Shown piece by piece: positions 16,025 through 25,616 of a stretch of DNA of 64,000 bases. The notes beneath the pieces are model-generated. The model saw only the letters and a program-made list of their open reading frames with translations, did not search any database and had not been told where the DNA came from. Position 1 is the stretch's first letter. Every line of letters starts with the position of its first letter. Source of the DNA: Caldilineaceae bacterium (GTDB lineage: Bacteria > Chloroflexota > Anaerolineae > Caldilineales > Caldilineaceae); NCBI GenBank assembly GCA_019637645.1, contig JAHBVH010000036.1, forward strand, positions 1 through 64,000, in the 5' to 3' direction. A program made the position numbers and the translations under genes.

Positions 16025-16705
16025 TCAATTCAAGCTGGCAAAACCCTCTTCAACATCAATTTCCACTAATTCGCCAGTCACGGTATAGACAATGCGCTCA
16101 CAGATATTGGTTGAACGGTCCGCTGCCCGTTCGAGGTTGTGAGCCGCCCAGGATAGATAGTTGGCGTTGTCAATCGTGGAAGGGTTGGCCGTGATGATCT
16201 GGATCAGCTCGCGATTAATGGTGTTATAGAGCTCATCCACTTCGTCATCGCGCTTGGGGATCTGCCGGGCCGCGGCCAGGTCTTGGTTCATAAAGGCATC
16301 GAGCGAGCTGCGCAACATGTCCACAGCAATCGCGCACATCTGTGGCAAATGCACCAATGGCTTGACTAACGGTTGGTGACCGATATAGAGCGCAATGCGG
16401 GCAATGCCTTTAGCGTAGTCACCGATCCGCTCTAATTCTGACGCAATTTCCAGCACAGCCGCCAGCAGGCGCATATCGCGTGCCATGGGCTGTTGGGTGG
16501 CGATTAAGGTCAGACAATCATCTTCGATCTTAAAACGTTTGCTATTGATCACCCGATCATTGGCAACCAAGCGGCGCGCAGCATCCAAGTCTTGTCGCTT
16601 GAGAATATCCATTGAGTCCAATAGGGCCTTGGAAACGATGCTGCCGAGGACTAATAGCTCATCCTGAAGACCTTGAAGTTCTTTCTCATACCGAGTTCGT
16701 GTCAC
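16025..16705 (-). CDS. phoU: PhoU, phosphate signalling protein
   Basis: The 226-residue product is an all-helical PhoU protein: two related three-helix bundles with the metal-binding E/D-x3-D signatures (ERIGDYAKGI in the first half, LERAADRSTNI in the second). PhoU links the Pst transporter to the sensor kinase and prevents toxic phosphate uptake when phosphate is plentiful. The frame is open to 16750, but the GTG at 16705 has GGAG eight bases before it and gives the usual family start (TRTRYEKEL) and length. It is the last gene of the pst operon and is followed by a clear terminator. Confidence 0.95.
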   Translation of the reverse strand: MTRTRYEKELQGLQDELLVLGSIVSKALLDSMDILKRQDLDAARRLVANDRVINSKRFKIEDDCLTLIATQQPMARDMRLLAAVLEIASELERIGDYAKGIARIALYIGHQPLVKPLVHLPQMCAIAVDMLRSSLDAFMNQDLAAARQIPKRDDEVDELYNTINRELIQIITANPSTIDNANYLSWAAHNLERAADRSTNICERIVYTVTGELVEIDVEEGFASLN

Positions 16706-16887
16706 TGAAAAGCTCCATTCTCCGCTTGTAGCGCCTTGAGGGAAGTGCAATTGAGAAATTTATTAGAACACTTTCGCGACTTTCTCTGTCGATCTTTTCC
16801 CGAGCAGGCACTACAATTTTGTATCGATCATAACACCTAGGGCATAGACTCGTCGCGCCCGAGCCATGAAATTGGCATGCGTAGCCT

Positions 16888-17706
16888 TTAGCCAAAGCGC
16901 CCGGTAATGTAATCTTCGGTGCGCTTCTCTTTGGGATTGGTAAAGATCTGGCGGGTTGGCCCAAACTCGGCCAAGTGCCCCGTGCGACTGTCATCCACCA
17001 TAAAAAAGGCCGTATAGTCCGAGACCCGCGCGGCCTGTTGCATGTTGTGGGTCACGATCATGATCGTATATTTTTCGGTCAGTTCGCGCATGAGATCTTC
17101 GATCTTTAACGTCGCAATCGGATCCAGCGCCGAGCAGGGTTCGTCCATAAGGATAATATCCGGCTTGACCGCAATCGCGCGGGCAATACACAAGCGCTGT
17201 TGCTGGCCACCCGAAAGGCCCAGCGCGCTCTGCTGCAATTTCTCTTTCACTTCATCCCATAACGCCGCGCCGCGCAGGGCATCCTCGACCAGCTCATCCA
17301 TATTGCCCTTAAAGCCATTGATCCGCGCCCCCCAGGCAATATTCTCGTAAATGGATTTGGGGAAGGGATTCGGCTTTTGAAAGACCATGCCAATGCGGCG
17401 GCGCACTTCAACTGGATCAATATTAGCGGCATAGATATTTTGCCCGTTATAGGTGATCTCCCCCGTCGTGCGCGCGCTGGGGATGAGATCATTCATCCGG
17501 TTAAAGCAGCGTAAAACCGTGCTTTTGCCACAGCCAGAAGGGCCAATCATGGCCGTGATTTTGCCCTGCTCAATCTGAAGATCAACATCGCGTACGGCAT
17601 GAAAATCACTATAAAAGATATTTAATTTCTTCGACTCGATGACATATTTACCCGTGGCCGGGGCTGTGCCATTTTGCATCGTTTCCTGGGCAAGTTGAAG
17701 GGTCAT
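16888..17706 (-). CDS. pstB: PstB, phosphate ABC transporter ATPase
   Basis: This 272-residue ATPase energises phosphate import. Walker A is GPSGCGKST, the ABC signature is [14 protein letters not shown], and Walker B is [13 protein letters not shown], all with PstB-specific context such as [12 protein letters not shown] and [15 protein letters not shown]. The start is the ATG at 17706, preceded by GCAGGAG that lies within the end of pstA; the longer frame to 17757 only reads pstA sequence. One base separates the pstA stop from this start, so translation is coupled. It should sit as a dimer under PstC and PstA. Confidence 0.97.
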
Positions 17707-17707
17707 A

Positions 17708-19819
17708 TTACACTCTCCTGCTGCTATAACGATTGCGCAGCAATACAGCCGACGCATTTAAGGTCAGCAATAAAATGAGCAGCACCACGATCGCGGCGGC
17801 GGCTAAATTCCGAAATTCGGCTTGGGGCCGTGATGTCCATTGATAGATTTGAATCGGCAAGGTCGTAAATTTGGCAAAGGGACCATTGGGATCGACCACA
17901 ATAAAGGTCGAAGCGCCTATCACCACCAAAGGGGCCGTTTCCCCAATCGCACGCGAGATGGCTAGAATCGTGCCCGTCAGAATGCCCGACAGAGACGATG
18001 GCAACACATGGTGCCAGATGGTCTGCCATTGGGTCGCGCCTAGGCCAAAGCTCGCTTGGCGGAGCGAACTCGGCACGGCGCGAATGGCCTCACGCGCGTT
18101 GATGATAATCACCGGCAAGATCAATAGCCCTAGCGTGAGACCTGCCGAGAGGACCGTGCGGCCATTGGATGTGGTGGGGTCCGAGAGGCCAAACATGGTT
18201 CCACTGGTAAAGGGCTCGAGGATGCGTACAAAGATCGCCAAGCCCAACATACCGTAGATAATAGAGGGCACCCCCGCCAAGTTGTTGATATTGGTCTCGA
18301 CCAGCCGGTTGAACCAATTCTTGCCCGCGTACTCCTCCAGGTAGATAGCCGCGCCTACGCCCACCGGCAACGAAAAGAGAATCGTGATGAGGATCACCCA
18401 GAGCGAGCCTAACAATGCCGTGCGTACGCCCGCATGGAGCGGATCGGACGATTGGGCCGCGGTCAGGAGGTCGGTCGTTACCCAGTTGCGGAAGATCAAT
18501 TGGCCGTTGGGGATCTCAGTGACCTGCGCTTCAATCTCACTACGCATGAGGAGAGAATCGCGCAAAGACCAAGTACGGACAATCTTGGGCTCGACGACCC
18601 GCTCTTCCACCAAGTTATAGACATCTTCTTGGGAACGCTCGACAAAGGGCATGTCATTTTCCAAGCGGCGCATTAGGCCAGCCGAGACATTGGCCGCCAA
18701 AATATCCATGAGCGTCTCTTTGGGCAGATCGGCTAATTCACGATCAAAGGTCTCTTCCACAAAGAAATCGAGCGTACCACTTGTTACATCAGGGGTGAAG
18801 CGAGCAATTGGGGCATTGGGCCAGCCCGGGCTTACATCCGACCAAGTCGCGGCCGTGGTGAACAGTTGGCGTAGCTGTTCAAAGGTCACCGTGTTGAGAA
18901 AATCATTCGCACGGCTGACCACAATCGCCAAGGCATCGGTGCCGACGCGTAACTCAATCGGCGTTACTTTGGCCTTACCACAAGCATCGATCTCGGCGCG
19001 GTTGATGGCACGGCTGGCGTTGACCAAGTCCACCGTGCTGTTGCGCTGACAAAGCTGGACAAACCCAGCCGAGGTTCCCGTACTTTCTGTCGCAATTTCA
19101 CCAGCAAAGCCCGCATTGGCAAACTGTTCGCTCAAGCGCACCGTTAGGGGATAGACCGTGGAGCTTCCTGTCGTCAGAATGGGGTCAGCATTTGGCTCGC
19201 CCGCCGTGCCAGCGCTCGCGGCCAACTTGGCGAGGCTCGCGGCGAGCACGTCGGCGCTTGCCGGAAAGTAGCCCACATCATCGATTTCGTTATTGACGTT
19301 GGTCAGATAAAAGTGGAGGAATTCGGCCAATTGCGGTTTGGCGGCAAGCGCCTGCACCGTCGTATAGAGATAGAGCGGACGCGCCAACGGATATTCGCCC
19401 GACTCGACTGTAGCCGCCGATGGTGAAACCTCTTCGACGGGCAGCAGCCGCAGTTCATCGGCATGGGCTTGGTAGTAGGCATAGCCGAAGAAACCAATTG
19501 CATGGGGATCAGCCGCAATCCCGCTAGCCAACGCATCGTCGTCGGCGCTGGAGACCAAGTTGGGCGCGGCCAATAACCGTTCTTCTTCCACCTGCATGAC
19601 CAGAGCGCTGGGATCGATCTTATTTTGGAGCGCCACATAGCCGAAAGCACTGTTGAGAATATTATAGAGCAAGGCGAGCAACGCCAATACGCCAACCATG
19701 GTGGCTAGCATAAAGAGATTGCTCCATAAGGTTGCGCGCCCAAGCCGGGTGGCAACCTGTTTCTTGAGCGTTTCGCCTTCCGGAAACGCTGCCGAAGCCG
19801 CTACGGATTGTTTTGCCAT
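17708..19819 (-). CDS. pstA: PstA permease with inserted, circularly permuted PstS-like domain
   Basis: At 703 residues this is more than twice the usual PstA length. TM1 is at about 33-53. Residues about 83-200 match the C-terminal half of the PstS encoded at 21075 ([27 protein letters not shown]). Residues about 211-360 match the N-terminal half ([29 protein letters not shown]). So the binding domain is present in permuted order, joined by an [16 protein letters not shown] linker, and the phosphate-contact GSSTVYP and SGT motifs are kept. Residues about 440-703 are a normal PstA core with the EAA loop ([20 protein letters not shown]) near 576-595. Its ATG overlaps the pstC stop by one base. 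It lacks a lipobox, so the receptor would be tethered by TM1. Confidence 0.93.
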
Positions 19820-20826
19820 TAGTCATACTCCTCGCGGAAGCGCGATACCAAGATCCGGCTGAGGATATTGAGCCCCAAAGTCATTAAAAAGAGCAAGAGG
19901 CCAATCGAAAAGAGACTCGTGTAGTCGAGCGAGCCATAGCTCAAATCGCCGCCGCTAATGCGCACAATGTGCCCTGTCATGGTTTCGCCAGCCTTAAAGG
20001 GGTTAAAAGCCGCACCATTCGCCAGGGCATCCCCCCAACTACTAAAGTTGCGTGGCCCGGCACCGGCGGCAATGGCAACCACCATGGTCTCGCCGACAGC
20101 ACGTGAAACGGCCACAATAAAGGCCGCGGAAATCCCCGACAACGCCGCGGGCAAGACAATCCGCAACGCCGTTTCAAGCTTGGTGGCGCCAATGCCATAG
20201 GCCGCTTGGCGCAATGCTTGGGGTACAGCGGTCAAGGCATCTTCACTCATGGAGGTCACTAGGGGTAAAATTAAAATACCAATGACAATCCCAGCAGAAG
20301 CATTGTTATAAATTTCAACGACATTTTTTCCAAAAATTGATTGTAAGAGGGGCGTCATAAAAGTTAACGCGAAATAGCCATAAACCACGGTGGGCACCCC
20401 AGCCAGCACTTCCAACATGGGCTTGAGCCAGCCGCGGACCCGTGGCGAGGCATATTCACTCAGGTAAATGGCAATCATTAAACCCAACGGCAAGGCAACC
20501 AACATCGCCATCAGGCTTGTCAACAGCGTGGCAATGACCAGTGGCCAGATCCCAAACCGTAAGATGGCAGGCTGCCACATAATGCCCGTCACAAATTCAC
20601 GCACCGTCACTTCGGCATTGCGAAAAAAGAGCCAGGATTCTTCGCCCAGCACAATGATGATGCCAATGGTTGTTAAGATCGAAAGCGCGCCACAGACAAA
20701 CAGAAAGCTCTGGATGACTGTTTCACCCAGACGATAGCGACGCCGTAAATTCAAAGGCTGCGACTTGACGTGGTCCGCTGCGGCGTCAAGCGGTTGAGCG
20801 CGGCTCATGCCTAATTCACCTTGCAT
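19819..20826 (-). CDS. pstC: PstC, phosphate ABC transporter permease
   Basis: This 335-residue permease pairs with PstA to form the membrane channel for phosphate. It has a polar N-terminus, TM1 at about 37-60 and at least five further helices, with the EAA-type coupling loop [20 protein letters not shown] and the PstC-typical [14 protein letters not shown]. The length is normal and, unlike PstA, no extra domain is inserted. The ATG at 20826 is preceded by AAAAGGAG. Its stop shares one base with the pstA start. It follows pstS after a 248-base gap containing an intrinsic terminator. Confidence 0.95.
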
Positions 20827-21074: not shown

Positions 21075-22157
21075 TTATGGTAGCACAGCCGACAAAGCGC
21101 CTTTGGCCGCGTTGAGGGCCTCTTCGCTAGCTGGGAAGTAGCCCACTTCTTCGATGACTTCGTTGACATGTGTCAGGAAGAAGTTGATAAAGGCCCCAAC
21201 CTGTGGCTTTTCCTGAATGATGGTCGCATCGGAGTAGATGAAGAGCGGGCGAGCTAAGGCATATTCGCCGCCTTCGACACTCTCATAGGTCGGTTCGACA
21301 CCATCAATGTTCAGAATATTCAGGAGGTCCGCATTTTCCTGGTAGTAGGCGTAGCCAAAGAAGCCGATGGCATATTCACTGCCTTCCACACCTTGCACCA
21401 ACACGTTATCATCTTCGCTCAACTGGGTGCTGGGGGCGGCTAACAACGGTTCGGCGTTGTCTTCCAAAACTTCTTCGACAAAGTAATCGAAGGTGCCGCT
21501 GTCGGTGCCGGGGATGAAGCGTTGAATCGGCTCAGCCGGCCAGCTCGGATCAACATCGGACCAGTTGACTGCGGTAAAGATCTGGGCCAGTTGTTCTAGC
21601 GTCACATCGGTTGCCCAGTCATTGGCTGGGTTGACCACAACGGCCAGTGCATCGGTGCCGACGCGGAATTCAATCGGCGTGCGGCCAATGGTGGCGCAGT
21701 TGGCGATTTCTTCTTCGTTGATACCACGGCTGGCATTGGCAATGTCGGTCTCACCAGCCACACAGAAGCGCTCTAAACCAGCACCAGAACCGATGCTGTC
21801 AATGGTGATGTTTCCGGCATAACCTTCATCGGTGAAACGCTCGGCAATGGCTTCAGAAAGCGGATAGACCGTGGAGCTACCAGCCACAATAATGTCGCCA
21901 GTCACTTCCAAGGGATTGACTTCGGGCAATTCTACCGTTTCGCCCGTTGCCGCGGTTTCGACGGTGGCGGTGGTGGTTTCGGTCGTGGTCGTCGTCTCGG
22001 TGCTGGTCACCGCTTCGGTGGCAGCCACTTCTTCGGTAGCAGGCGCTTCGGTGGCCGTTGCTTCAACAACGGCGGCAGGCGCTGGGGCGGCTGGCGCACA
22101 GGCTGCCAACCAGAAAACTAATACGAAAGGCACGAGTACGAATGCTATTCGGCGCAT
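21075..22157 (-). CDS. pstS: PstS, phosphate-binding lipoprotein
   Basis: The 360-residue product is a periplasm-side or cell-surface phosphate receptor. A lipoprotein signal ends in WLAAC with the lipidated Cys at residue 20. A Thr/Glu/Ala-rich linker runs to about residue 93. The PBP-like fold follows, with [11 protein letters not shown] for phosphate contact, [18 protein letters not shown], and TDSGTFDYFVEEVL in the second contact loop. The C-terminal half has [12 protein letters not shown] and EEVGYFPAS. These same blocks recur, in swapped order, within PstA. AGGAG precedes the ATG. TTAACA boxes lie about 275-310 bases upstream. Confidence 0.95.
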   Translation of the reverse strand: MRRIAFVLVPFVLVFWLAACAPAAPAPAAVVEATATEAPATEEVAATEAVTSTETTTTTETTTATVETAATGETVELPEVNPLEVTGDIIVAGSSTVYPLSEAIAERFTDEGYAGNITIDSIGSGAGLERFCVAGETDIANASRGINEEEIANCATIGRTPIEFRVGTDALAVVVNPANDWATDVTLEQLAQIFTAVNWSDVDPSWPAEPIQRFIPGTDSGTFDYFVEEVLEDNAEPLLAAPSTQLSEDDNVLVQGVEGSEYAIGFFGYAYYQENADLLNILNIDGVEPTYESVEGGEYALARPLFIYSDATIIQEKPQVGAFINFFLTHVNEVIEEVGYFPASEEALNAAKGALSAVLP

Positions 22158-22669: not shown

Positions 22670-24638
<1,969 letters not shown>

Positions 24639-24881: not shown

Positions 24882-25616
24882 CTAGCCATCAAAACGATAG
24901 CCAATCCCCCGTACCGTCACCAAACGGGTGGGGTTGGCCGCATCATCCTCAATCTTTTCGCGCAGCCAACGGACATGCACATCCACCGTGCGGCTGCCGC
25001 CATCATAATCCCACCCCCAAACCCGCTCCAGAATCAAGTCGCGGCTGAGGACAATGCCCTTGTTACGCGCCATAAAAACCAAGAGATCAAACTCTTTGGG
25101 CTTGAGGTGAAATACATTCTCCTGAAAGACGACTTCGCGCCGGCTCAGATCGATGACGAGATCCGTAAAGAGCAACCGTTCCAGGGGAAAATCCGCTTGG
25201 ACCACCTCCTGTTGGCTAGCCGAAACTTCCTCGCGCACGAGGCGCACACGGCGCAGCAACGCTTTGACCCGTGCCACCAATTCGCGCATGCTAAAGGGCT
25301 TGGTCATATAATCATCTGCGCCGACCTCCAAGCCCACGATCTTATCAATCTCATCAGCCTTGGCTGTTAGAAAGAGAATCGGCACACTCATTTCTTGGCG
25401 CAAAATCCGACAAACTTCAAAGCCATCTAATCCGGGCAACATAATATCCAAGACCATTAGATCCGGAGTTTGTTGCCGCGCCAATTCCAGCGCCTTGACA
25501 CCATCTTTGGCCGTACTCACGCTGTAGCCTTGTTTGGTTAGATTATACTCCAACGTATCCAACAAAGCTGGCTCATCTTCTACTACAAGCACCTTTGGAT
25601 TTACCATAGCTGTCAT
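24882..25616 (-). CDS. phoB: PhoB/OmpR-family response regulator
   Basis: The 244-residue protein has a REC domain with the acidic pair VVEDEP, phosphoacceptor Asp57 in [11 protein letters not shown], and Lys in DDYMTKPF. A winged-helix OmpR/PhoB DNA-binding domain fills about residues 150-244 ([40 protein letters not shown]). The linker between the domains is long, with Glu/Gln. Its position upstream of a PhoR-like kinase and pstSCAB-phoU makes it the likely activator that binds the TTAACA boxes. The assignment as PhoB rests on context, since the family is large. Confidence 0.88.

Follow-up and report, generated by a model that had tools for sequence, protein, structure and literature searches.

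We report that the pstA gene in a 64,000-nucleotide stretch of DNA from a Caldilineaceae bacterium (the window; contig JAHBVH010000036.1) encodes a 703-residue PstA phosphate permease that carries a complete, circularly permuted PstS-like receptor domain in the loop between its first and second transmembrane helices (TM1 and TM2). Functionally, we judge it probable, at roughly 70%, that this insert acts as a tethered receptor, closing on bound phosphate and docking on the importer to which it belongs, alongside a free PstS. The gene is a genuine open reading frame on the minus strand; the gene order here is pstS-pstC-pstA-pstB-phoU, preceded by genes for a sensor kinase and a response regulator, and receptor domain and permease are covalently joined in that one frame. 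The product scores above the curated NCBIfam cut-off for PstA (TIGR00974, 247 bits versus 193.45), Pfam BPD_transp_1 matches its permease core, and the adjoining pstS, pstC, pstB and phoU give the operon context of a PstA.

An earlier note, made from the letters alone, had proposed a PstA of this length (strand unstated) with a PstS-like region of swapped halves between TM1 and the core, and BLASTP against the PstS of the same locus bears this out: PstA residues 74–201 align with PstS 230–357 (61 of 128 identical, 48%, E 4e-36) and residues 214–359 with PstS 89–232 (77 of 146, 53%, E 7e-46), that is, in swapped order within the TM1–TM2 loop. The two matches overlap at PstS 230–232, three residues that mark the cut point, and the old PstS ends are joined by a linker of about 10 residues. 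When the insert was aligned to PstS doubled head-to-tail, a single continuous path scored 683, against 381 for the native order; chance similarity is ruled out, the best of 500 shuffled controls scoring 71. Pfam PBP_like_2 was likewise found in two stretches of the protein, and the NCBIfam PstS model (TIGR02136) gave 188 bits in two stretches against a cut-off of 206.6, a loss of score expected of a linear profile on a permuted domain whose halves depart from native chain order. Structurally, the AlphaFold2 model has the two-lobed fold of a PstS receptor, with a predicted local distance difference test (pLDDT) score of 79–96 for ten-residue blocks over the insert, and its best match among solved structures is a PstS, with 222 of 257 residues covered. 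The motif residues of the presumed phosphate site, assigned from the phosphate contacts of E. coli PstS, are nearly invariant in 78 aligned full-length rows, unlike in reduced forms described below. The earlier note's shared blocks with the free PstS ([23 protein letters not shown]) are present in the PstA sequence, and it was also right that the phosphate-contact motifs are kept, that the free PstS is retained and that the receptor is internal to the chain, in the TM1–TM2 loop, and not a terminal fusion; the structure prediction and the survey of other long PstA proteins that it suggested both came out in its favor.

The permuted arrangement is a family trait. A protein search with the window PstA returned 1297 matches, and among the best 120 of these (query included) the swapped order was found in 119 of 119 other homologs, all of 671–721 residues and 60–79% identical. 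Each runs from the C-terminal half of lobe II through the C-terminal half of lobe I, the N-terminal half of lobe I and the N-terminal half of lobe II to the permease core, and the minority that come from named organisms belong to Caldilineaceae, Anaerolineae or other Chloroflexota. We also probed, with PstA residues 20–145, 396 genomes of the class to which the genome of locus L001 (a Caldilineaceae record) belongs. At least 34 had a match running from TM1 into the C-terminal half, indicating a PstA fusion or a shrunken form: in 29 the locus contains the four receptor parts and the core in permuted order, one (G376) is truncated by its contig, and four (G084, G147, G165 and G204) match with lobe II pieces only; contig-cut cases such as G259 and G265 are not counted among the 34. 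Uninserted PstA proteins of relatives (L014, L103, L104) match the same TM1 and the same post-insert loop. BLAST with the insert parts, at 1e-3 or 1e-4, found no diverged PstS in the other long PstA loops of L034, L036, L037, L041, L042 and L128. By eye, the PstA loops at L041:2471-4780, L042:5661-7907 and L128:4572-7289 are lengthened by internal repeats unlike PstS, with extra N-terminal hydrophobic stretches.

A second, independent fusion joins a permuted PstS to PstC. In the PstC proteins L152 and L153, the TM1–TM2 loop contains a PstS-like domain, and the insert of L153 begins at the second PstS strand and ends with the first strand and helix. Its alignment score is 744 with doubled PstS and 690 in native order, and none of 300 shuffles exceeded 72; only a small part (~35 residues) is permuted, and doubling PstS raises the score modestly. 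A search for this form gave 1285 matches, and of the 120 listed, 118 are fused PstC, the others (P0132, P0228) being three-copy tandem forms of free PstS. BLAST recognizes the relocated piece, close to the insert end, in 62 of the 118, and GSST occurs only at the insert end in 114, the motif as written not being found in the other 4. Fused PstC is matched across the fusion in 13 of the 396 genomes, ten read as loci and three by match range, and a fourteenth, G353, matches in the permease part only. The model of a fused PstC (mean pLDDT 77, predicted template modeling score 0.60) matches the PstS structure 4jwo at E 3e-20 over 247 columns. Uninserted PstC of relatives has a small beta module in the TM1–TM2 loop, and the PstC receptor sits in a hairpin of this module. 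Such modules lie at L151:1899-3128 (minus strand), L037:5440-6690 and L044:4152-5696, the last doubled by eye. Fused PstC, as in Phototrophicus methaneseepsis (P0125, 695 residues), thus resembles the fused PstA in holding a permuted PstS in the TM1–TM2 loop, but differs in being cut after the first lobe I helix, in its insertion in a beta hairpin of the loop module and in its separate receptor group. The arginine five places before the glycine region of SGT is leucine in 35 of 52 PstC inserts (P0123 residue 221; alignment A2), so their affinity may differ. No genome in the two samples carried both fusions, although only about one would be expected by chance (34 × 13 / 396).

In the PstA model, lobe I runs strand 214–218, helix 223–235, strand 242–246 and helix 249–256, and lobe II runs strand 339–343 and helix 348–357, continuing at the other insert end with strand 88–91 and helix 94–103. 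In the PstA insert the chain is opened in lobe II, between the SGT helix and the next strand, and in the PstC insert it is opened in lobe I, between the GSST helix and the next strand; from secondary-structure order only, the two cut points look equivalent in their lobes. The earlier note's view that permutation is needed to fit a two-lobed receptor into a loop is unsupported: native PstS already has its two chain termini on lobe I, so inserting it without permutation could equally place both termini at the membrane. The permutation instead alters the lobe of attachment, to lobe II in PstA and to a different site on lobe I in the PstC version. PstA and PstC are related subunits of a pseudo-symmetric pair, and the independent PstC fusion of a related group suggests how the receptor sits on the transporter; our inference is that PstA is the docking partner of lobe II and PstC that of lobe I. 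For the importer PotD-PotABC, PMC11414716 states that PotB and PotC are pseudo-symmetric related subunits, and describes hydrogen bonds between the N-lobe and PotB, with the C-lobe contacting both PotB and PotC. These contacts would fit the lobe pairing only if PstC corresponds to PotB; among the literature matches listed, no paper on a solved E. coli Pst complex was found for its lobe contacts. We posit, at even odds, that lobe II with PstA and lobe I with PstC are fixed partners. On this view the receptor became tethered twice, once per permease, and each time the chain was opened between the helix that contacts phosphate and the strand following it, in whichever lobe overlies that permease (pseudo-symmetric points of receptor and transporter). 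The resulting importers would bring their own receptor and could function whether or not free PstS is present, and one line would later have trimmed the receptor to its docking lobe.

Evolutionarily, a receptor tree of 111 rows (quick search, with the Shimodaira–Hasegawa-like approximate likelihood ratio test only, midpoint root) places 26 PstA inserts in one group (support 99) and 18 PstC inserts in another (99), both among the free PstS of mainly Chloroflexota loci (97). Given these separate supported groups, each fusion looks like one old event, and the insert derives from a free PstS of the Chloroflexota kind. Free PstS genes with near-identical copies in one frame occur twofold at L002:2616-4592, L009:2685-4658, L013:2449-4506, L036:3561-5411, L039:2368-4386 and L152:299-2242, and threefold in P0132 and P0228; the duplication needed for permutation therefore occurs here, although these near-identical copies are recent and not the ancestor itself. 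The permutation probably arose by tandem duplication and loss of the outer halves. One further tandem PstS gene, L012:2441-4264, contains a masked stretch (X).

Free PstS persists beside both fusions. It is present, whole or in part, in 35 of 45 fused-PstA loci (a set in which several loci appear twice), the other 10 stretches ending in or just before pstA or within ~400 bases before pstC, and in 11 of 12 fused-PstC loci (ten genomes); it is kept wherever the stretch reaches far enough. Possibly, fused and free receptors differ in affinity. Beside the fused operon and in the opposite orientation, L002, L009, L010 and L119 (minus strand) and L117, L118 and L122 (plus strand) have receptor-like genes, accompanied in several by permease-like ones, which may form a second pst set.

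With the new chain ends in lobe II, just past the SGT helix, the receptor would hang from PstA by lobe II, and lobe I, a continuous segment, would be free to swing. Lobe II would stay over PstA while lobe I closes on phosphate and docks on PstC, upon which the pore would open as in other type I importers, for transport in cis, and the lipid-anchored free PstS would work alongside, in cooperation or competition with the tethered receptor. Several observations weigh against this reading. Conservation is lower in the two halves of the insert (mean majority share 0.64 and 0.66) than in the PstA core (0.86). A comparison of lobe I and lobe II segments by hhalign, with shallow profiles (56 of 67 free PstS), gave no similarity, so the equivalence of the cut points comes from the element order. 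In the PstA core tree (126 rows) the trait is scattered, changing 10 times, and few branches are strong, such that losses, exchange or poor resolution must be assumed; a count of gains from this tree was dropped as too weakly resolved. Finally, only lobe II is left in L017/L102, L100, L101 and L105 (539–571 aa from stop to stop; four genomes), and the PstA of L132–L135 holds a still shorter stretch (~120 residues) in place of the insert, with a BLAST match to an insert part in L132 only; the receptor role is thus dispensable in some lineages.

These reduced forms speak for an insert that is a scaffold or a decaying remnant that does not bind phosphate, with lobe II stabilizing PstA or the docking of free PstS, and so do the nesting of lobe-II-only rows with full-insert rows in the core tree (99) and contig-cut L099, whose GSST motif is lost and SGT altered and which may be a step towards loss of the insert. 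Since the motif residues stay nearly invariant where the insert is full-length, we regard this explanation as unlikely. Somewhat less doubtful, though still improbable, is that the insert binds phosphate as a sensor or gate that does not feed the pore, either blocking the docking site or signaling the external phosphate level to PhoU and the sensor kinase. The adjoining phoU, sensor kinase and response regulator and the retention of free PstS wherever the stretch is long enough would suit such a role, and E. coli Pst complexes do take part in phosphate signaling, but the same neighbors accompany ordinary Pst systems, and two independent fusions that each include a whole receptor are at least equally consistent with delivery to the pore. 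It is very unlikely that half-receptors complete each other between neighboring complexes, or with halves of free PstS, and not within one chain: only a short linker connects the halves, and domain swapping occurs in other proteins, but modeled as a single chain the insert is predicted with confidence and aligns with most of a PstS. As for an assembly error joining pstS, two genes upstream, to pstA, its probability is negligible; misassembly is refuted by the 119 homologs that share the order at 60–79% identity. On balance, we favor the tethered receptor.

The positions of the insert, the permease parts and the neighboring genes are collected in Table 1. The free PstS has LAAC at its start, which we take to be a lipoprotein motif.

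Table 1 Features of the fused pstA gene and its operon, in window coordinates.
Feature	Position	Strand	Evidence
pstA with inserted permuted PstS domain, 703 aa	17708..19819	-	TIGR00974 247 bits, cut-off 193.45
First PstA helix, holds TM1 (residues 16–58)	19646..19774	-	Helix 16–58 in AlphaFold2 model
C-terminal half of PstS-like domain (residues 74–203): first part lobe II, then last part lobe I	19211..19600	-	Residues 74–201 48% identical to PstS 230–357; lobe limits approximate
Linker between former C and N ends of PstS (~residues 204–213)	19181..19210	-	Gap between the two PstS matches
N-terminal half of PstS-like domain (residues 214–359): first part lobe I, then part of lobe II; carries [12 protein letters not shown] and SGT motifs	18743..19180	-	53% identical to PstS 89–232; motif counts
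Lobe I segment (~residues 146–292), one continuous piece in the permuted chain; absent from lobe-II-only relatives	18944..19384	-	L017, L100, L101, L102, L105 match flanking lobe II pieces only; limits approximate
Loop after insert (residues 360–455), common to uninserted PstA of relatives	18455..18742	-	Matched in L014, L103, L104
PstA permease core (residues 456–703)	17711..18454	-	
pstC, ordinary, 335 aa, without insert	19819..20826	-	TIGR02138 243.5 bits, cut-off 196.45
Free pstS, 360 aa, lipoprotein-like start	21075..22157	-	TIGR02136 240.9 bits, cut-off 206.6
pstB ATPase; start codon uncertain, overlaps pstA as annotated	16888..17757	-	Pfam ABC_tran
phoU	16025..16750	-	Pfam PhoU
Sensor histidine kinase (HAMP, PAS, HisKA, HATPase), PhoR-like by position	22728..24638	-	Pfam
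Response regulator with DNA-binding domain, PhoB-like by position	24882..25616	-	Pfam

Receptor domains tethered to importers were already known at chain ends; here the receptor has been cut at a new point and inserted in a transporter loop, twice separately and on a different lobe each time. If confirmed, these proteins would be natural constructs with a fixed receptor–transporter geometry, with which one could test the lobe–permease pairing and find out if receptors must ever detach from their transporters. Apparent stages of circular permutation are visible as well, from tandem receptors through permuted inserts to inserts cut back to one lobe. Among the open-literature matches listed (subscription papers lie mostly outside this coverage), no paper described a permease–receptor fusion of this kind or a permuted receptor, except PMC4990184 and the GlnPQ and OpuA papers.

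Compared with known systems, the fused PstA differs from E. coli PstSCAB, in which PstA has 296 residues and PstS is free. OpuA carries its tethered receptor at the chain end, and the receptors of both GlnPQ and OpuA keep native order; they share with the fused PstA a receptor covalently joined to the permease, whereas the PstA insert is internal, lying inside the TM1–TM2 loop, is circularly permuted and has a free receptor kept beside it. In GlnPQ, the receptor domain is joined to the permease at the N-terminal end, according to PMC8025302. A natural circularly permuted binding protein is described in PMC4990184, namely TpMglB-2 (Tp0684), the glucose-binding lipoprotein of Treponema pallidum; unlike the PstA insert, it is a separate, sugar-binding lipoprotein of another fold class, cut elsewhere and not belonging to a permease.
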